Source: Rikenella microfusus (GTDB lineage Bacteria; Bacteroidota; Bacteroidia; Bacteroidales; Tenuifilaceae). From it: 64,000 nt of DNA. Every line of letters begins with the position of its first letter. The first letter of the stretch is position 1. The stretch lies in the NCBI GenBank assembly GCA_020722565.1, contig DYKO01000007.1, forward strand, positions 62,001-126,000. Reading direction: 5' to 3'. Made by a program: the position numbers and the translations under genes. Positions 38,882 to 49,920 of the stretch are shown piece by piece. The notes below the pieces were generated by a model, which ran no database searches, was not told where the DNA came from, and saw only the letters and a list, made by a program, of their open reading frames with translations.

Positions 38882-41674
38882 ATGAATAAGATAGTAAAGA
38901 TTGCTGGTAAAACCCTAGCTGTCCTGATTGGACTATTTATTGTTACTGCTATAGTTGTTCCTGTTGTTTTTAAACCCCAACTAATGCGGCTTGCCAAAAA
39001 CGAGTTAAACAGCATGCTCAATGCGCAGGTTGATTTTACCGATTTTCAGGTATCTCTAATAAAAGGATTTCCCAATCTTTACATTGGCATGAAAGGCCTG
39101 AATGTGATAGGTGTCGATAGCTTTAAAAACGATACGCTGGTTGCCTTTAAGGAATTCAGTGTTAAGGTCAACCTTTGGAGCGTAATTGACATGGAGAATT
39201 TTGAGGTGAAATCCATATTATTGGATGGAGCCATCGTAAGGGCTAAGGTTTCCCACGATGGTAAGGCAAATTGGGACGTAATGAAACCCTCCGAAACCCC
39301 TGAAACTGAAGTTGAGGATACAGCAGACTTAACTCCTATAAACACAAGAGTTTCGCTTCGAAAATTCGAAATTAGAAATGCTAATATTTCCTATATCGAC
39401 GATTCCTCCAACATGAAGGCAAACATTAAGAACTTCAACCTAATCCTATCGGGTAATATGGGAGTAAAACAAACCAACCTCAACCTTAAGAGTTCCATTG
39501 AGTCGCTCAACTTCTGGATGGATGGCATCCGCTACATTAAGAACTCCACCCTTGGTTTTGATGCACTCATTGAAGCCAATCTCGATAGCAGCTACTACAC
39601 CTTTAAGGAAAACCGCTTTAGCATTAACCAGCTTATGCTGCTATTTGATGGATCAATACGTATGCCTAACAACAGCATTGACATCAACCTGAATTTTAAA
39701 ACACCCTCAACCAATTTCAAAGCTTTACTATCAATGATTCCTGCTATTTACATAAAAGATTTTGAGGGTCTTCAGGCATCGGGTAATTTTGGAATTGAAG
39801 GCTACGTAAGGGGAACATACAACGATACCCAACTGCCTAACGCATTTATTGTCCTTTCGGTTGACAATGGAATGTTTAAGTATCCCGATTTGCCCAAATC
39901 GATTAGCAATGTCAACATCAGCACCAAGGCTTGGTTCGATGGAACCCACATGGACAACTCCTTGGTTAACGTCGATAGGTTCTCGCTAGAACTGGGCGGA
40001 AATCCCTTCAGCATGAACCTGCACGTGGCTACGCCAATAAGCGATATGCTGGTTAACGGAAATGTTACCGGGAAAATTGATTTTGCCTCCCTAACCGATA
40101 TTGTCCCCCTTGATAGTACCTTTATTGAGGGAATCCTTGAGTCGAATCTCGACTTTGGCGGAAAACTTTCATTTATTGAAAAGGAACAGTATGATCGCTT
40201 TAAAGCCGATGGCATGCTTAAGCTGTCCCGCTTTAAGTTCAAATCGCCCGATCTACCGGCCGAGGTTGCCATTAACGATATCACCCTAAATTTTTCCCCA
40301 CAATATGTAAATTTGGCCAACTTCGACATGAATATTGGTTCGAGTGATGTACACATGAAAGGGCTCTTAGAAAACTTTATCCCCTATATCTTCAGCAACG
40401 CCACCCTTTCCGGCAACCTCGAGGTACACTCCAATCTGTTCAACACAAACGAACTGATGACTGGTGATAGCACACCAAATGAAGAGACCACCGATAGCAC
40501 AGTCCTAAGTGTAATTGAAATTCCAAAGAATATAAACTTTGTAACCAAGGTTGATTTTAAAAAAATTGTTTACGATAAACTGATAATTAGCAATACTACT
40601 GGAAATGTTACGATTTCGGACCGCGTTGCCGACCTTAAAAATCTATCCATGAACATGCTTGAGGGCTCCGTTCAGATGTCGGGCACGTATGACCCGCGAG
40701 ACCCCAAAGTCCCAAGGGTTAACTTCGATTTTAACATGCGCGATATTGAAATTCCGGCTGCCTTTAAATCATTCTCGACCCTACAGAAGATGGCGCCGGC
40801 AGTAAAGGATATGACAGGTAGGGTATCCACCCAGTTCCGGTTTACCTCACTGCTCGATACCACAATGATGCCAGTTATGAGTAGTATCGATGCATACGGG
40901 AAATTACAATCCTACAGCATTGGCATTAGCAACTCCAAAGCATTTGCCAAACTGGCCGATTTTACAAAGAAGGAGGAACTTCGTAATCCAAGTCTAAAAG
41001 ACGTTAACGTGAGCTTTAGCGTAAGGGATGAACGCATCTACATCGAGCCATTCGATACAAAAATTGTCCAAGCGAAGATGAACTTCGGCGGGGATATGGG
41101 CATTGATCAAACCCTCAATTTTAAGGCAAAGGTTGCCATTCCCACATCGTATCTTGGCGGCGCCACCAATTTGGCCAACGACCTATTGGGTAAGTATGGG
41201 GCTAAGCTACCCCAAAACCTTGATATTAAAATAAAGATTCTGGGGACATCTTCTAAGCCTGAGGTAATCCTAGATTCGGGAATGGGTTCAGAATCGGCAA
41301 GCAGTTCTGTTAAGGAAACTGCCCGTGAGGTTGTTAAGGGAAAGATAGATGATGCCAAGGTTGAAGCCCGTCAAAAGGCTAAGGCAGAATCCGATAGGTT
41401 AATTGCAGATGCCGAAAGGGAAGCCGAAAGAATTAGAGCCGAAGCAGCCAAGCAGGCCGAGCAAATAAGAAAGGAAGCAGAAGCACAGGCCCAAAAAACT
41501 GAAGCAGAAGGCAAAAAGAAAGGCTCAATTGCCGAAAAAATTGCAAAGGAAGCTGCAAAGAAAATCAGGCAAAATGGTGAAGCTGCCGCACAAAAGGTTA
41601 TATCTGAAGCCGATGAAAAAGCCAATGCACTTGTGGCTAAGGCCAAAGCAGAAGCAGCTAAGTTGGAACAATAA
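38882..41674 (+). CDS. AsmA family protein with long coiled-coil tail
   Basis: 930 residues. One N-terminal membrane helix (about 8-30) anchors it in the inner membrane, followed by a long beta-rich periplasmic body of the AsmA/TamB-like type (AsmA N-terminal region about 30-140, AsmA C-terminal-like region about 540-790). From about 800 to the end the sequence changes to an Ala/Glu/Lys/Arg-rich helix with heptad character (AEREAERIRAEAAKQAEQIR, then KIAKEAAKKI), about 125 residues. AsmA-like proteins are thought to bridge the periplasm and move phospholipid between membranes; the tail is an unusual addition. A second AsmA-like gene lies at 44246. Confidence 0.88.
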   Translation: MNKIVKIAGKTLAVLIGLFIVTAIVVPVVFKPQLMRLAKNELNSMLNAQVDFTDFQVSLIKGFPNLYIGMKGLNVIGVDSFKNDTLVAFKEFSVKVNLWSVIDMENFEVKSILLDGAIVRAKVSHDGKANWDVMKPSETPETEVEDTADLTPINTRVSLRKFEIRNANISYIDDSSNMKANIKNFNLILSGNMGVKQTNLNLKSSIESLNFWMDGIRYIKNSTLGFDALIEANLDSSYYTFKENRFSINQLMLLFDGSIRMPNNSIDINLNFKTPSTNFKALLSMIPAIYIKDFEGLQASGNFGIEGYVRGTYNDTQLPNAFIVLSVDNGMFKYPDLPKSISNVNISTKAWFDGTHMDNSLVNVDRFSLELGGNPFSMNLHVATPISDMLVNGNVTGKIDFASLTDIVPLDSTFIEGILESNLDFGGKLSFIEKEQYDRFKADGMLKLSRFKFKSPDLPAEVAINDITLNFSPQYVNLANFDMNIGSSDVHMKGLLENFIPYIFSNATLSGNLEVHSNLFNTNELMTGDSTPNEETTDSTVLSVIEIPKNINFVTKVDFKKIVYDKLIISNTTGNVTISDRVADLKNLSMNMLEGSVQMSGTYDPRDPKVPRVNFDFNMRDIEIPAAFKSFSTLQKMAPAVKDMTGRVSTQFRFTSLLDTTMMPVMSSIDAYGKLQSYSIGISNSKAFAKLADFTKKEELRNPSLKDVNVSFSVRDERIYIEPFDTKIVQAKMNFGGDMGIDQTLNFKAKVAIPTSYLGGATNLANDLLGKYGAKLPQNLDIKIKILGTSSKPEVILDSGMGSESASSSVKETAREVVKGKIDDAKVEARQKAKAESDRLIADAEREAERIRAEAAKQAEQIRKEAEAQAQKTEAEGKKKGSIAEKIAKEAAKKIRQNGEAAAQKVISEADEKANALVAKAKAEAAKLEQ

Positions 41675-42468: not shown

Positions 42469-43572
42469 TCAAGAACCACCCAGTTTAGCTATCTCATCGC
42501 TTAAGGCATTAACTATACCCTTTTCCGTAATAATTCCGGTAACCAGCCGTGCAGGGGTGACATCAAAAGCATAGTTAATGGCAGGAGTTTCCCTTGGACA
42601 GATGAGCACATCCACCACCTTGTTATTATAAAGACCGCTAACGTAGCGCACCTCATTGGCTGAGCGCTGCTCAATGGGGATTCCAATTCCCCGATAAAGA
42701 TTAAAATCAATGGTTGAGGTGGGAGCTGCTACGTAAAATGGTATTTGGTTATCGAAGGCAGCCAAAGCTTTAAGGTAGGTCCCAATTTTATTGGCAAAAT
42801 CGCCATTAACAGCAATGCGGTCGGCTCCCACAATTACCAGATCAATCATACCGTTTTGCATTAAATGGCCACCAGTGTTGTCGGCTATAAGTGTGTGGGG
42901 AACACCCTCATTGAGTAGCTCCCAAGCGGTAAGTGCCGCTCCCTGGTTTCGCGGTCGAGTTTCATCAACCCAAACATGAACCCTTATCCCTTTACGATGG
43001 GCAAGATATATGGGTGAAAGTGCCGATCCGTAATCGGTAAAGGCCAGCCATCCGGCGTTACAATGGGTAAGAATATTAACCGTATAGCCTCTTTTCCGTA
43101 CTGCAATCTGCTCAATTATGGGTAAACCGTTTAAACCAATACGTTTGCAACTCTCAGCATCGAGGTTGGCAATATGCTGGGAACTGGTAAGGGCCAACCG
43201 AACCCTATCGGCATTAGCCGGTAAATGCATCACCTTCGAAATCATTTGTTCGATACCCCACTTCAGATTAACTGCCGTTGGACGGGTATTCATTAGCTCA
43301 TCGGTGGCTCGTTTTATAAACTCATCGTTTTTACCTGTAGTAAAGGCCTCGCGAATGGTAAGATATACCCCAAATGCACCAGCAACACCAATTAACCCAG
43401 ATCCCCTAACGTGCATGTCGGAAATGGCTGTTACCATTTCCTTATAGGTTGATAGCGTTTCAACCTCAAAACGATGGGGAAGAAAACGCTGGTCTATTAC
43501 CTGAACATCTGCAAATATCGATTTTGCATTATAAACCCAAATGGTTCTAAAGTATTGACCATTTACCTGCAT
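42469..43572 (-). CDS. mtnA: S-methyl-5-thioribose-1-phosphate isomerase
   Basis: 367 residues. It isomerises methylthioribose-1-phosphate to methylthioribulose-1-phosphate. Visible: GVAGAFGVYL, NLKWGIEQM, the catalytic Cys in LTHCNAGWLA (about residue 168), VDETRPRNQGAALTAWEL, and the catalytic Asp in VGADRIAVNGDFANKIGTY (about residue 250). Divergent from the TlpA gene by 136 bases and followed closely by the class II aldolase gene. Confidence 0.93.
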   Translation of the reverse strand: MQVNGQYFRTIWVYNAKSIFADVQVIDQRFLPHRFEVETLSTYKEMVTAISDMHVRGSGLIGVAGAFGVYLTIREAFTTGKNDEFIKRATDELMNTRPTAVNLKWGIEQMISKVMHLPANADRVRLALTSSQHIANLDAESCKRIGLNGLPIIEQIAVRKRGYTVNILTHCNAGWLAFTDYGSALSPIYLAHRKGIRVHVWVDETRPRNQGAALTAWELLNEGVPHTLIADNTGGHLMQNGMIDLVIVGADRIAVNGDFANKIGTYLKALAAFDNQIPFYVAAPTSTIDFNLYRGIGIPIEQRSANEVRYVSGLYNNKVVDVLICPRETPAINYAFDVTPARLVTGIITEKGIVNALSDEIAKLGGS

Positions 43573-43708
43573 CTGATTTAGTATCTATTTAAACATGTCT
43601 TAAAGCACAATCCTAATTCAACTAATTCACATGAAAAGTAAGAATTATATTGGTAAAACTTTGTATCTTGGCATAAAATTTATAGGATAGCCTGTAAAAA
43701 AGAATACT

Positions 43709-44242
43709 ATGAGACAATTGGCTTTAGTTTTCATATTGTTGGTTTTATTTGCTGGCAAAGCAGCTACTCAGGAAATTCAAGTTGGACAAACCGCACCTGA
43801 AATTATTATGACGGGGCCAAATGGCGAGGAATATAAACTATCCTCGTTACGAGGGAAACTGGTGCTGGTTGACTTTTGGGCATCATGGTGCTCCCCCTGT
43901 AGAAAAGAAAATCCGTTACTGACCGAGGTATATAAACGATATAAGGAAGCCTGCTTTACCAATGGCAAGGGGTTCGAAATTTTTAGCGTATCGCTCGACC
44001 TGAAGCGTAACAATTGGGTGGAGGCTATAGAATCCGATAATCTTATATGGAATTATCATGGTAGCGATTTAAACGGCTGGCGAAGCAGTATTGCAAGAAT
44101 GTATAACATCAAGGCAATTCCTATGAATTTTCTTATCGATAGTGCCGGTATTATAATAGCCAAAAATCTGAGAGGTTCTGAGCTAAACTCAACCCTTCGG
44201 AAGTATAAAAAAATCCATTTTTTTATAAAAGATTGTAGGTAA
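43709..44242 (+). CDS. TlpA-like periplasmic thiol-disulfide oxidoreductase
   Basis: 177 residues with a signal peptide (1-20, cleavage near AATQE). Thioredoxin fold with active site WCSPC (about 57-61) in LVDFWASWCSPCRKENP and a cis-Pro region IKAIPMNFLID. Reducing or oxidising role on envelope proteins is likely. First of a compact four-gene unit: AsmA-like gene 3 bases on, then DsbA-like, then a Cys-rich lipoprotein. Confidence 0.92.
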   Translation: MRQLALVFILLVLFAGKAATQEIQVGQTAPEIIMTGPNGEEYKLSSLRGKLVLVDFWASWCSPCRKENPLLTEVYKRYKEACFTNGKGFEIFSVSLDLKRNNWVEAIESDNLIWNYHGSDLNGWRSSIARMYNIKAIPMNFLIDSAGIIIAKNLRGSELNSTLRKYKKIHFFIKDCR

Positions 44243-44245
44243 ATT

Positions 44246-47200
44246 ATGAAAACTACGCACATCGTCAGGAAATCACTAAATATTTTACTCTATCTGTTTT
44301 TAGGATTAATCCTTTTCTTGATCCTATTTATATTAGCTATCAAATTATTTGAGGGGAAGATTACCCAATTAGCCATTCATGAGGTAGAAAAGACCATTAA
44401 GGCCCCCATCAGCTATGGCCAGGTTTCCATTATCCCCTTCAGGGATTTTCCTAATCTTACCGTAAGGATTTCGGACTTTAAGTTAGGACAGCAGTCCGAT
44501 TCGGTTCGGGTTTTCGGGATCGCTCAACTCCCCGACACCCTAATTGGTTTTAAAAATGTGTTTATCTCTATACGAGCATACCCGCTGATACACAACAATA
44601 TACAGGTTGAAGGTTTTGAGCTTAACGGCTTTAGGGCAAACTATGTGGTTGACTCAACCGGACGCAGCAACTTCGACTTTCTAATACCCTCTGATACACT
44701 TCCTGAGCAAAACGATTCATCCGTACAAACCATTCTTAACATCCTGCTAAAAAATCTTACTATAAGCGATATTAACCTCACCTACTTCGATAGCCGCGAA
44801 AATGCTTCGGCAAACATCAACATTTCAAAGCTTCACCTTAACGGAAGGGTAACGGGCGATAGCATTCAGTTTAAAAGCTTTGGCGATGTAGTTCTTAGCC
44901 GACTTACCTATCAGGATTTTCCGGTAAATAAATTAAATAAAGCGGCTCTCAGCTACAGCATCGAGTACGATAATGGTAATGTTACCATCTCATTGGCAAC
45001 CCTCGAAACCGATGGTATTCAGGTAAGGGCAAAGGGAAACGTGGTCCTTTCCGATTCCATTTGGATCGACATGGGTGTTGCCCTACCAAAAATTAATCTG
45101 ATTGAACTTTCGAAGTTTATCCCCGACAGCTTGACACAAAGTTTTGGGATAGACCGGGTTGCAGGGCAAATAGCCCTAAACTCAACCATCAGGGGATACC
45201 TATATGACACGATAATGTTTCCCAGCGTTTTTGTTGATTTTGCTTTAAAAAATGGATATCTGAGAACCACTAAGTATCCCAAGATTAAACGGTTTAATAT
45301 TACCGGAAGCCTTGCCGTTCCCAATACAAACTTTTTAACCACCACATCCATCAGCATCAAGAAGCTAGATATTCAGACAGAGCAAAGTAGTGTGAATTTG
45401 TCGCTAACGCTTAAAAACCCCAACAAACCTGTGTACAACATTCAGGGAAACCTGTTAATTAACCTCGATGAGTTTACTCCGTTGCTTCCCGACAGCACTC
45501 TGACCCAACTTTCAGGAATAGTTGAAGCCGATTTTTATACCAAAGGCAAGCTACCAGAATATCTTGGATTAAGCAGCAGCGATTACTTTATGGCTAACTC
45601 TGGCTTTAATATTAATCTACGAAATATAAGTGCAGCCATCGATTCCATTAACGCTATAACGAACCTAAATGCCGCCATTTCGTTCTCATCGAATAAGCAA
45701 CTCAATATAAACGGACTGGAGCTGCAGCTGCCCGGATATAATCTTAAAGTTACCAATGGGTTACTTAAAGCAACACTTAACGGCGATATATCCTACCCCG
45801 AAAAAATCGACATAAAAGTAGATACACTAAATATTGCCCTAGGCAGCAGCCTAATTGGATTAAAATTTAAGGTGCGTAACCTGCAAAATCCAGTATTCCG
45901 AGCCGATGGCCTATTTAAAGTCAATCTTAATGAAATAAAGTTCTACCTCCCCGACACACTGGTTAGCTACATTACAGGTTTAGCCGAGTTAAAGTTTAAC
46001 ACATATGGCAACCTAAAACTCGATTCGCTCGAACGCGACCTGATGCCTATTATCTTTGAAAATAGCCGGTTTTCAGCTACCGTTACCGATTTCGGCTTTT
46101 CGCTCCCCAACGATACCCTTATTGGTATTGATCATCTCTCGTTTAACATGTCCATGGCCAACGATACCATTAGGCTTAACAATCTTAGCGGACGCTATAA
46201 AGATTTGGAATTCCAATCGGACTCAACCTCTATATGGAATGCTTACAAGACTATAATTCAAGAACAAAAGAACAAAAAACTAATTATTAACACATCACTT
46301 TGGGCTAGCAGGATTGACTACGCCATGTTCCTACCATTTATGGCAGAGGACACCACCACAAATATTGAGGCAGACTCTATCAAAACAGAAACTATAGAAG
46401 ATGATTCATCGTCCAGCTACATGCCTCAATACATTATAAGGGGTATTGCCAAAGTGGATAGGATAAAATACGGGAAGATTCTAATTAGTGATCTTTCTAC
46501 CAAATTCAGGCTCGATGATAGCCTTTACGTGATTGATGATATGCGTTTGAAGGCTTTTGGTGGCACAATGGTTACCTCAGCCATTTACGATACCCGTAAA
46601 GCACCTCTTGAAATAATTGAATTTAAAAACGAATCGAAAAACATTAACATTAAACAGCTTCTTGCAGAAAACGAAGATTTTGAACAAGACTATTTCACAC
46701 ATAAAAACATTGAGGGACTATTGACTGGAACTGTTTTTGGTAGGGTTGTAATGCAGGATACGAATATCTTTTACGAAAAATTTAACCTAATGGGTGATTT
46801 TACCCTTGAGGATGGCGGTATTTACAATTTTGAACCCGCAATGGAATTGTCCAAGTTCACAAACTTAAAAGAACTTGATAATATTGTGTTCCGCACGCTT
46901 AAAACTAAAGTTTTTATTTACAACAATCAGATTTATTTCCCCAAAACCGATATAGTTAGTACAGCCATGGATATGTCGGTTTACGGAATGCAAAGCTTTG
47001 GCGACGATTACGAGTACCATTTTGTAGTTTATCCGGGTGATATGATGTTTGGTAAATCTAAAAAGCTACTTAAGAGGCAGGGACTTAAGGCAGAAGATTT
47101 CGAGGGCGACAACAAGGCAAAACGATCGGGGTTATACCTGGTTGCACTTGAAAGGGGTAAGAATTCAAAGTATAGTTTTGATACCAAGCAGCTACAACGG

Positions 47201-47344
47201 GTAATGAAAGCTACAATTAGGGTTCAGGAACGGGGATTGAACCTTGTATTTCACCCCTATGTAATGAATTTTAGCACCGATTTAGATAGAAAAGAATTCA
47301 AACCGAAAGTTGAAAAAGATGGTAAAAAGGATCAGGCCAATTGA
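44246..47344 (+). CDS. AsmA-like envelope protein
   Basis: 1032 residues. N-terminal membrane helix (about 12-34), AsmA-like start (IKLFEGKITQLAIHEVEKTI), then repeated beta-strand blocks with recurring LPDSTLTQLSG / LPDTLVSYITG / IPDSLTQSFGI segments, each about 160-180 residues apart, so the body is built of repeated modules. A C-terminal charged end follows a conserved block (MSVYGMQSFGDDYEYHFVVY). Likely spans the periplasm. Three bases after tlpA-like; its end overlaps the DsbA-like gene by 26 bases. Confidence 0.85.
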   Translation: MKTTHIVRKSLNILLYLFLGLILFLILFILAIKLFEGKITQLAIHEVEKTIKAPISYGQVSIIPFRDFPNLTVRISDFKLGQQSDSVRVFGIAQLPDTLIGFKNVFISIRAYPLIHNNIQVEGFELNGFRANYVVDSTGRSNFDFLIPSDTLPEQNDSSVQTILNILLKNLTISDINLTYFDSRENASANINISKLHLNGRVTGDSIQFKSFGDVVLSRLTYQDFPVNKLNKAALSYSIEYDNGNVTISLATLETDGIQVRAKGNVVLSDSIWIDMGVALPKINLIELSKFIPDSLTQSFGIDRVAGQIALNSTIRGYLYDTIMFPSVFVDFALKNGYLRTTKYPKIKRFNITGSLAVPNTNFLTTTSISIKKLDIQTEQSSVNLSLTLKNPNKPVYNIQGNLLINLDEFTPLLPDSTLTQLSGIVEADFYTKGKLPEYLGLSSSDYFMANSGFNINLRNISAAIDSINAITNLNAAISFSSNKQLNINGLELQLPGYNLKVTNGLLKATLNGDISYPEKIDIKVDTLNIALGSSLIGLKFKVRNLQNPVFRADGLFKVNLNEIKFYLPDTLVSYITGLAELKFNTYGNLKLDSLERDLMPIIFENSRFSATVTDFGFSLPNDTLIGIDHLSFNMSMANDTIRLNNLSGRYKDLEFQSDSTSIWNAYKTIIQEQKNKKLIINTSLWASRIDYAMFLPFMAEDTTTNIEADSIKTETIEDDSSSSYMPQYIIRGIAKVDRIKYGKILISDLSTKFRLDDSLYVIDDMRLKAFGGTMVTSAIYDTRKAPLEIIEFKNESKNINIKQLLAENEDFEQDYFTHKNIEGLLTGTVFGRVVMQDTNIFYEKFNLMGDFTLEDGGIYNFEPAMELSKFTNLKELDNIVFRTLKTKVFIYNNQIYFPKTDIVSTAMDMSVYGMQSFGDDYEYHFVVYPGDMMFGKSKKLLKRQGLKAEDFEGDNKAKRSGLYLVALERGKNSKYSFDTKQLQRVMKATIRVQERGLNLVFHPYVMNFSTDLDRKEFKPKVEKDGKKDQAN

Positions 47345-47960
47345 GTGGTTAGCCATTGTGTTATCGGCTATACTATTGGTTCTAATAGGGATAAAATCAT
47401 ATAACCTTATAAATGCCAAAAAAAATAGCAGGATTGTTGATGTTACTGCTAGCCCACTTGATATTACTTTTGGTAGCGATACAGCAAAACTTACTCTATA
47501 TGCCTATGTAAGCTATCATTGCGGCTATTGCAGGCTTTTTTTTACCGAGGTTTTCCCAAAACTTCGGGAGGAGTACATTGCAAACGGGAGGGTAAAGTTG
47601 GTTTTAAAACTTGTGGAACATTCAACCAGCGAGGCTCGTTTAAAAGAGGTAAAAACTGCGGTATGTATTAACCGGTACGGTTACTACGAGAAGCTACATG
47701 AACTGTTGGTAACCAATAGTAATGTTATTTATACCGATGAATTTAGTAACATGGTAAACTATTTTATTGATAGCGACCCCATAATTGCAGAGTGTATTCT
47801 TGGCGATGAATCGATGAACTATGTATTGCATATACGCAACGAATTTAATAAATTTGATTTTACAGGTACACCAACATTTGTAATTGCAGGTAAAGTTTAT
47901 AAGGGTTACATGCCATACGATAGTTTTAAAAAGATAATTCAGTACCATTTAAAACAATAA
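47319..47960 (+). CDS. Membrane-anchored DsbA-like thioredoxin-fold protein
   Basis: 213 residues from ATG 47319; a TTG three codons earlier is less likely. One membrane helix (about 6-28), then a thioredoxin_4/DsbA-type domain with active site YHCGYC (CGYC, about residues 65-68) in LYAYVSYHCGYCRLFF, and cis-Pro motif FTGTPTFVIAGKVYKG near 180-195. CxxC plus helical insertion suggests disulfide formation or isomerisation of envelope proteins. Overlaps the AsmA-like gene; the Cys-rich lipoprotein gene is 4 bases on and may be its substrate. Confidence 0.85.
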   Translation: MVKRIRPIEWLAIVLSAILLVLIGIKSYNLINAKKNSRIVDVTASPLDITFGSDTAKLTLYAYVSYHCGYCRLFFTEVFPKLREEYIANGRVKLVLKLVEHSTSEARLKEVKTAVCINRYGYYEKLHELLVTNSNVIYTDEFSNMVNYFIDSDPIIAECILGDESMNYVLHIRNEFNKFDFTGTPTFVIAGKVYKGYMPYDSFKKIIQYHLKQ

Positions 47961-47964
47961 AGCC

Positions 47965-48309
47965 ATGCGAAAAAAGTTATTAGCCACCCCAATCATCCTT
48001 GGCGCCATTCTGGCATTACTAACCTGGGGCTGTAAGAAGGTTGAAGATGATGTATGCCAGCTCTTTGAGCCACCCGAGTGTGAAATAGCTAATGTATGCT
48101 GCCCCCCCGATGGAGGTAATTGCTACTATGAGGTTGGCGATCAAAAGTTTTACTGCGATAAAAGTGGTTGTGCTGAGGCGGAAAACAAGGCAATTGAAAT
48201 TCTTTGCGGAACCGCATCAGTTCAAGGGAAAATGTATGCAAAGGCAGAGCTTCAGCGCCTAACCATACAACTGATTCAACAGGCTAAAATGTATTCGGTT
48301 TGCCACTAG
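47965..48309 (+). CDS. Cysteine-rich lipoprotein, unknown function
   Basis: 114 residues. Lipobox LLTWGC puts the lipidated Cys at 23. Nine more Cys follow in 91 residues, including VCCPP, NCYY, YCDKSGC, ILCG and a near-terminal VCH; ten in all is far above the window's norm. An even number of disulfides would leave one free Cys besides the lipid anchor. No family recognised. Last gene of the TlpA-AsmA-DsbA unit and followed by a hairpin, so it belongs to that unit. Confidence 0.78.
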   Translation: MRKKLLATPIILGAILALLTWGCKKVEDDVCQLFEPPECEIANVCCPPDGGNCYYEVGDQKFYCDKSGCAEAENKAIEILCGTASVQGKMYAKAELQRLTIQLIQQAKMYSVCH

Positions 48310-48319
48310 CAGCGAGCGG

Positions 48320-48356
48320 GAGTGTCCTATTAGCATCCAGCAGCTATAGGACACTC
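48320..48356 (+). terminator. Strong hairpin closing the TlpA-AsmA-DsbA-lipoprotein unit
   Basis: GAGTGTCCTAT (48320-48330) pairs perfectly with ATAGGACACTC (48346-48356), with an inner AGC/GCT pairing. The T-tract after it is weak (TTGCTTTC), so it may be a terminator or an RNA-end stabiliser. Confidence 0.65.
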
Positions 48357-48381
48357 TTGCTTTCATTAAAATTCAGCAGCC

Positions 48382-49920
48382 ATGTTGGTAAAAACGTATG
48401 GAAGCGCTGTACATGGGATAAAGGCTACTACCATAACCATTGAGGTTAGTGTAGGGCAAGGCATTAACTTTTTTCTTGTTGGGCTACCCGATAATGCCGT
48501 TAAGGAAAGCCAGCAGCGTATAATGTCGGCACTGGAAACTAATGGCTATAAATTCCCCAAAAAGCGCATTGTTATTAATATGGCACCTGCCGATATCCGA
48601 AAAGAGGGATCGGCATACGATTTACCCCTCGCCATTGGGATAATGGCTGCATCGGAGCAGATCACATCCGATAACCTACATGAGTACGTTATTATGGGCG
48701 AGCTATCGCTCGACGGATTGATTCAACCCATAAAGGGGGTTCTCCCAATAGCCATTCAGGCTCGCGAAGATGGGTTTAAAGGTTTTATTGTGCCCAAGCA
48801 GAATGCACGCGAGGCTGCAGTGGTTAACAATTTAGAAGTTTATGGCGTTGAGCACATTAAAGAGGTAGTTGACTTTTTTAATGGGAGCAGCAACCTGAAA
48901 CCCACTGTGGTAAATACCCGCGAAGAGTTTTTTGCCCATGCCAATAGCTACGATGTTGACTTTTCCGATGTAAAAGGACAGGAGAATGTTAAGCGAGCTC
49001 TTGAGGTAGCAGCAGCTGGTGGCCATAATATCATCATGATTGGGCCCCCTGGAGCTGGTAAAACCATGTTGGCTAAACGCATACCCACCATCATACCGCC
49101 GCTAACGCTTCGCGAGGCCCTTGAAACCACAAAAATTCACTCGGTTGCTGGGAAAATTGACAGAAACACTTCTCTGATGACCCGTCGCCCATTCCGAAGT
49201 CCTCATCACACCATTTCGGATGTGGCACTGGTAGGTGGTGGGCAGTTCCCTCAACCCGGCGAAATTTCATTAGCCCATAATGGAGTTCTGTTTCTGGATG
49301 AACTTCCTGAATTTAAGCGCTCAGTACTTGAGGTGATGCGACAACCCCTTGAGGATAGGGTAATCACTATTTCACGAGCTAAGTTTACCGTTGAATACCC
49401 AGCCAGCTTCATGCTGGTGGCATCCATGAATCCTTGCCCCTGCGGCTACTACAACCACCCTGAAAAGGAATGCGTTTGTTCGATTGGTGAGGTGCAGAGG
49501 TATCTTAATCGAATTTCAGGGCCACTGCTCGACAGAATTGACATACACATTGAGGTGATCCCCGTGCCATTCGAAAAGCTATCGTCGGGTCCGCCAGCCG
49601 AAAGTAGCACCGAGATAAGGGCACGAGTGGTAAAAGCTCGTCAAATTCAAGAGGAACGATTTATTGAGTGGAGCAATGTCCACTGCAATGCCCAAATGAA
49701 CTCTAAACTCATACGCCAATTCTGCGTATTGGACGAAGCTGGAACCGCCCTTTTAAAAACCGCCATGGAACGTCTCAACCTTTCGGCACGGGCCTACGAC
49801 CGCATTCTAAAGGTATCGCGTACCATTGCCGATTTGGAAGGATCAGATAAAATTATGCCCCAGCACGTGGCTGAGGCAATTCAGTATCGTAGTCTGGACA
49901 GAGAAAACTGGGCAGGCTAA
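48382..49920 (+). CDS. YifB/ComM family Mg-chelatase-like AAA+ ATPase
   Basis: 512 residues, full length. N-terminal Lon-like fold region (about 1-170; [20 protein letters not shown]), AAA+ core with Walker [10 protein letters not shown] (about 219-227) and Walker [11 protein letters not shown] (about 304-313), and a zinc-type [15 protein letters not shown] stretch, then the Mg-chelatase C-terminal domain (about 410-507). ComM-type helicases promote branch migration of recombined DNA. Single gene; its stop overlaps that of the convergent YitT gene by 4 bases. Confidence 0.93.

Follow-up and report, generated by a model that had tools for sequence, protein, structure and literature searches.

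A compact run of four genes on the forward strand of a 64,000-nucleotide stretch of the Rikenella microfusus genome (positions 62,001 to 126,000 of contig DYKO01000007.1, assembly GCA_020722565.1; hereafter the window) is a real and conserved unit of the AsmA-plus-lipoprotein kind. Its constant core consists of a long AsmA-like protein and a small cysteine-rich lipoprotein, here called Lip, to which two thiol enzymes, a DsbA-like and a TlpA-like protein, are added as accessory components. We tentatively favor the possibility that the unit is a trans-envelope bridge resembling the YdbH-YnbE system, whose lipoprotein would be matured by the thiol enzymes of the unit itself. The genes and the hairpin behind them are arranged as follows.

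43709-44242, forward strand: TlpA/ResA-like thioredoxin-fold protein of 177 amino acids with the motif WCSPC (PF13905, 68.8 bits at a cut-off of 27, E 5e-19)
44246-47344, forward strand: AsmA-like protein of 1032 amino acids, starting after a gap of 3 bases behind the TlpA gene (PF05170, 61.7 bits at a cut-off of 29.8)
47319-47960, forward strand: DsbA-like protein (Thioredoxin_4) of 213 amino acids with an ATG start and the motif CGYC (PF13462, 83.3 bits at a cut-off of 23.2)
47965-48309, forward strand: Lip, a ten-cysteine lipoprotein of 114 amino acids, starting after a gap of 4 bases behind the DsbA-like gene
about 48312-48364, forward strand: strong hairpin 3' of the Lip gene (-31.3 kcal/mol, z -7.1)

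Conservation and composition of the gene unit

A search with the AsmA-like protein of the window alone against 60 relatives identified 16 genomes as strong carriers (E 3e-119 or better), the next match being at 1e-27. The DsbA-like protein is encoded in the same 16 genomes and on the same contig as the long AsmA, and Lip is present in all of them, in 15 within the same run of genes; in the remaining one (G014), the first three genes end one contig and Lip ends another, so that we infer their adjacency. With these 16 carriers read, the order TlpA, AsmA, DsbA, Lip was found in 14 genomes including the one of the window, and G044 shows AsmA-DsbA-Lip with no TlpA. Apart from G044, the carriers belong to the own family code, of whose 27 genomes 15 carry the unit; it is missing from the other 12, some of which are incomplete. 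When 295 genomes of the order were searched with a profile of the DsbA-like protein, 11 strong matches emerged (E 5e-42 or better), all with an AsmA gene upstream and a Lip gene downstream, and 7 of these genomes were new to the profile.

Altogether, the unit was read in 25 genomes of Bacteroidales spanning six family codes, several of which are represented by one to three genomes only. AsmA and Lip are present in 25 of 25, split over two contigs in G014. The DsbA-like gene lies between them in 23, and the two genomes without it (G122 and G222), which were located via a Lip search, retain the AsmA-Lip pair. TlpA comes first on the same strand in 18, counting a divergent copy in G121, and was absent from the fetched stretch in G044, G157, G253, and G261. 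Because AsmA and Lip occur in all 25 genomes, the DsbA-like gene in 23, and TlpA variably, the AsmA-Lip pair is the constant core of the unit and the thiol enzymes are accessory. A sequence-only reading of the window had proposed a dedicated envelope system and had named missing co-location in related genomes as the result that would speak against it; the gene set was found together across these genomes, and this part of the proposal has held.

The same reading had given the spacing of the genes (a gap of 3 bases, a 26-base overlap of the AsmA and DsbA-like genes, a gap of 4 bases) and a terminal hairpin, with which coordinates and folding energy agree. The arrangement goes beyond chance, all 7 genomes of the genus (g1) having kept the 26-base overlap. 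An in-frame TTG at 47310 offers a further possible start of the DsbA-like gene. The hairpin is far more stable than shuffled versions of its sequence (-13.45 kcal/mol, with 0 of 200 shuffles equally good) and is the probable terminator of the unit; a long U run does not come after it, and an Rfam search of positions 43000-49000 returned 0 matches.

A wider search of 395 genomes across the phylum revealed no further unit, with Lip giving only short or partial matches, five partial ones of which were left uninspected. DsbA matches outside the Bacteroidales, read in 4 of 16 genomes (G692, G391, G394, G561), had no AsmA or Lip gene adjoining, and the weak DsbA matches within the order in G181 and G055 were likewise without AsmA or Lip (G130 and G285 were left out). 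Weak Lip matches in G317, G253 (two), G137, G107, and G223 (E 4e-5 to 7e-3) had no adjoining AsmA or DsbA gene and were dropped; the dropped matches mostly cover the lipobox region, and the inspection extended to six regions only, one of which has a TlpA-domain protein alongside.

The AsmA-like protein and the specificity of its pairing

Proteins of the AsmA family carry an inner-membrane anchor and a periplasm-spanning beta-groove for lipids. The AsmA-like protein of the window has a hydrophobic N-terminal anchor, as judged by eye, and not a single cysteine, which is true of 10 of the 25 members, this one included. PF05170 was matched by all 19 AsmA rows of the alignment (E<=0.01), of which 17 also matched DUF748 and 3 YhdP (best 6e-11); the window protein itself scores 41.0 bits with DUF748, below the cut-off of 50.

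An AsmA profile run against 198 genomes of the order separated seven unit members (1230-1437 bits) from the next match at 241 bits. Note that the profile contains rows from six of the seven genomes, the remaining one (G001) being a near relative, so the high scores arise by construction; the search does not test the pairing independently, and its useful part is the score gap below the top seven. No AsmA above 241 bits without Lip occurred among these 198 genomes, the profile being built on unit members. In terms of profile scores, the AsmA of the unit is a separate, sharply bounded subfamily. As controls, 20 lower-scoring AsmA loci were inspected, taken from the upper part of the list rather than at random and several of them cut by contig ends, and 0 of 20 have Lip, DsbA, or TlpA within three open reading frames. 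A second AsmA-like gene lies upstream in the window itself (38882-41674), coding for 930 amino acids with a long, charged, coiled-coil-like C-terminus, and falls outside the unit subfamily (150 bits by the AsmA profile).

The predicted model of the AsmA-like protein is strand-rich and was built from four sequences only, with a predicted local distance difference test (pLDDT) score of 56. The Foldseek/VIA matches listed for this poor model are generic (barrels, LptD, ApoB, TamAB), none at E<=0.001, and no PDB match was counted for the AsmA sequence profile (best E 0.029).

Cysteine pattern of Lip

The ten cysteines of Lip noted in the sequence-only reading were counted correctly, but the lipobox cysteine (C23) is acylated, so that an odd number of nine remains: C31, C39, C45, C46, C53, C64, C69, C81, and C113. 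Besides the lipobox cysteine, C31, C39, C45, and C81 are invariant. C46 and C53 are jointly present or absent in all 25 Lips, having changed at least four times on the AsmA tree. The pair of C64 and C69 is concordant in 25 of 25 by spacing and in 21 of 25 by exact column, with two changes; in the four exceptions, a loop of variable length places the second cysteine eight residues further along. All 7 Lips without a C-terminal cysteine hold an even number of cysteines (4 or 6), and among the 18 with one the number is odd in 16 (14 nine, one seven, one eleven) and ten in the other two. Because C46 and C53 behave in concert in all 25 genomes and the number is even in the 7 Lips without a C-terminal cysteine, the cysteines are probably structural disulfides, as far as their evolution tells. 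The numbers would fit stable disulfides plus one extra C-terminal thiol, which a pure redox carrier would not need. The co-occurrence of TlpA with the C-terminal cysteine did not lead to a claim: each changed only twice, leaving 2 independent pairs (sign test p 1), and the rule is broken by G261 (two C-terminal cysteines, no TlpA) and G121 (TlpA, no C-terminal cysteine).

The window Lip has no match at E<=1 in Pfam or NCBIfam, and among 23 Lip rows no such family occurred in more than 3 rows (best E 0.0047 in Pfam, 0.0019 in NCBIfam). A match to LptM, the lipoprotein of the lipopolysaccharide translocon, in 3 rows (best 0.0071) was taken as a signal-peptide match, like those to other unrelated families. 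An AlphaFold2 model of Lip from four sequences (pLDDT 77.5) contains four strands between residues 30 and 63 and helices at 70-80 and 86-112.

Two further proteins match the Lip profile. At G306:C9 (L059, 6904-9446), the match (5e-6) is a small, acidic, cysteine-containing lipoprotein with a second DsbA-like gene (E 1e-28) in its vicinity but no AsmA gene, and at G253:C8 (L077, 5516-6889) it is a lipoprotein-like protein of 457 amino acids (1e-11).

Thiol enzymes and redox setting

TlpA has a signal peptide without a lipobox, as judged by eye; its WCxPC motif recurs as WC[SAK]PC in 15 of 15 rows of the alignment, and its score with the ResA model NF002854 (84.8 bits) stays below the cut-off of 170. 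The DsbA-like protein appears by eye to be membrane-anchored. Its score with PF01323 (22.4) is below the cut-off of 25.6, CxxC is kept in 20 of 20 rows, and the PDB chains matched by its profile are BdbD, ScsC-type proteins, and DsbA. It resembles these oxidoreductases in its Thioredoxin_4 domain with CxxC, but differs in being genetically tied to AsmA and Lip and in having two invariant cysteines, C116 and C159, beyond the CGYC motif. The dipeptide within CxxC varies among members (GY, TY, TF, FY, RY, PH, PY, SY, HH, QY, LF), and the CGYC of the window was therefore rejected as proof of a DsbC-like isomerase. In G261 (L057, 6637-7263), the DsbA-like protein is apparently itself a lipoprotein (lipobox-like GGC) instead of being membrane-anchored. 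Outside the Bacteroidales, three DsbA-like genes of other Bacteroidota (L065, 6666-7304; L066, 6607-7272; L067, 6089-6760) each adjoin a gene for 365-381 amino acids, with no AsmA or Lip.

As to possible redox partners, none of the 60 relatives has a DsbB match above the cut-off (G019 gave one below it), and VKOR, absent from the own genome, was present in 7 of 60, three of which are carriers of the unit (G006, G019, G024). A DsbD-type transporter occurs in 57 of 60, own genome included.

Genes next to the unit

Directly after the unit, the window contains a gene for a YifB-type AAA ATPase (48382-49920), which follows the unit in all 7 genomes of genus g1; a search of 9 other genomes, two of which are cut near Lip, did not find it. 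In general, the downstream and flanking neighbors vary across carriers while the unit persists.

Discussion

According to passages in three sources (PMC12977461, PMC12045153, PMC8593681), the role assigned to proteins of the AsmA superfamily is phospholipid transport across the periplasm, and YdbH, encoded in the ydbH-ynbE-ydbL locus of Escherichia coli (PMC8593681), works with the outer-membrane lipoprotein YnbE. A design of this kind fits the present unit, because the pairing of AsmA and Lip is constant while the thiol genes change. The likeness lies in an AsmA-superfamily protein encoded together with a small outer-membrane lipoprotein partner, and an AsmA-like gene and a small lipoprotein gene were read in all 25 genomes, on two contigs in the case of G014. 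The differences are that Lip is cysteine-rich without any YnbE-type match, that DsbA- and TlpA-like genes belong to the unit, and that no YdbL-like third gene was recognized in it. YnbE is small and not cysteine-rich, and Pfam holds models of both YdbH and YnbE. Neither family appeared in Pfam searches with the window proteins, 23 Lip rows (E<=1), and 19 AsmA rows (E<=0.01), and NCBIfam searches with the window proteins and Lip rows did not return them either.

In such a bridge, the AsmA-like protein would be anchored in the inner membrane and span the periplasm as a beta-groove for lipids, as known from its family, and Lip, held by its lipid anchor in the outer membrane, may cap or extend the far end. 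Lip would fold only after formation of about four intramolecular disulfides, for which its evolutionary pattern suggests the bonds C46-C53 and C64-C69 and two more among C31, C39, C45, and C81. The DsbA-like protein, whose gene overlaps that of AsmA, would make or proof-read these bonds, and TlpA, encoded upstream in one clade, might, more speculatively, handle the extra C-terminal cysteine C113. A bolder version, which we consider distinctly unlikely, is a disulfide-licensed lipid bridge, in which the DsbA-like protein, oxidized without DsbB or VKOR, would set the four disulfides of Lip before Lip could dock on AsmA and the path across the envelope open, and TlpA would control the lone C-terminal thiol, such that the redox state of the envelope would gate lipid flow from the inner to the outer membrane in Bacteroidales. 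LptD-LptE-LptM is a disulfide-controlled bridge for lipopolysaccharide; if the favored bridge is correct, the two would be alike in that a disulfide state controls an envelope lipid bridge, and would differ in that the cysteines of the present unit sit in the lipoprotein and not in the beta-groove protein.

Several points weigh against the proposed bridge. Lip has no YnbE-type family match, and its model matched no PDB fold at E<=0.001 (by sequence, best E 0.45). Given the poor AsmA model, groove and length are presumptive. Because the CxxC dipeptide varies, the DsbA-like protein may act either as an oxidase or as an isomerase, and for its reoxidation the own genome (2.84 Mb) has no DsbB or VKOR model match, other oxidases not having been sought; this also sets it apart from the DsbA/BdbD/ScsC-type enzymes. 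The main doubt concerns the location of Lip, since the acidic residues after its lipobox resemble a surface-export signal of Bacteroidota and a surface-exposed Lip would be awkward as a periplasm-facing partner. At least three acidic residues at positions +2 to +6 were counted in 15 of 25 Lips vs. 2 of 20 sampled lipoproteins, and 9 of 25 vs. 1 of 20 fit C-X-K-(D/E)2, the background being a small sample from one genome (G002) selected by a simple lipobox rule. This motif is described as the optimal surface-export signal of Capnocytophaga (PMC5080379), which lies on a different branch of the phylum; Bacteroides has its own consensus, and the window Lip (CKKVEDD) does not fit the optimal motif.

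These N-termini would suit a GspN-like export route, in which Lip is a disulfide-rich surface cargo that AsmA shields or guides to the surface after folding by DsbA. GspN, an AsmA-like protein of the beta-taco type tied to a lipoprotein in type II secretion, is reported to be necessary for surface lipoproteins in Acinetobacter (PMC12802150), and the AsmA-like protein of the window gives a sub-threshold match to TIGR04411 (T2SS_GspN_Lepto; 25.7 bits at a cut-off of 50). However, none of the four genes codes for a secretin or any other type II secretion component, and one large AsmA protein for a single cargo of 114 amino acids would be uneconomical. Considering also the foreign origin of the motif and the small background, we regard such an export route as unlikely, though it ranks first among the alternatives.

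It is improbable that AsmA and Lip serve another step of outer-membrane assembly, such as the insertion of barrels or lipoproteins as in TamAB, in which case the thiol genes would be retained solely to fold Lip. TamB is an AsmA-like periplasmic protein with an outer-membrane partner, and this partner is a lipoprotein, TamL, in Bacteroidota, as stated in passages of PMC12045153; a TamAB chain (9xdd_B) is among the weak Foldseek matches (E 0.024), and the YhdP matches mentioned above point the same way. In contrast, the unit proteins match no TamB or TamA family, Lip with its 114 amino acids is smaller than a TamL-type barrel requires, and the AsmA model is weak.

The sequence-only reading had suggested a dedicated envelope thiol/disulfide system, with Lip as substrate or redox carrier and AsmA as a bridge; taken as a relay, it would consist of TlpA, DsbA, and Lip as redox carrier, with AsmA serving only as a scaffold. 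Two thioredoxin-fold proteins in one unit, the odd number of nine non-lipobox cysteines in 14 of 25 Lips, the last of which stands at the C-terminus or close to it, and the widespread DsbD-type reductant transporter are in line with such a relay. The part of the claim that stands is that Lip is probably a substrate of the thiol enzymes. The relay as the purpose of the unit is probably wrong, and we rate it as decidedly improbable: AsmA and Lip persist in genomes without DsbA or TlpA, the cysteine pairs of Lip come and go together, which fits static disulfides better than a carrier, and the window AsmA has no cysteine and therefore cannot pass electrons. Finally, that unrelated envelope genes are co-transcribed and stand together by descent only is very improbable, although all carriers found share Bacteroidales ancestry and several family codes are thinly sampled, since neighbors such as YifB change while the unit stays and none of the control AsmA loci shows the partners.

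No description of this gene set was found in the open-license papers searched, as judged by titles and the beginnings of abstracts. The passage of lipids and lipoproteins across the periplasm of Bacteroidota is poorly known, and the unit names an AsmA subfamily, an uncharacterized lipoprotein partner, and built-in thiol enzymes for it. It makes AsmA function outside the Proteobacteria directly accessible to genetics, as well as disulfide formation in a genome with no DsbB or VKOR model match.

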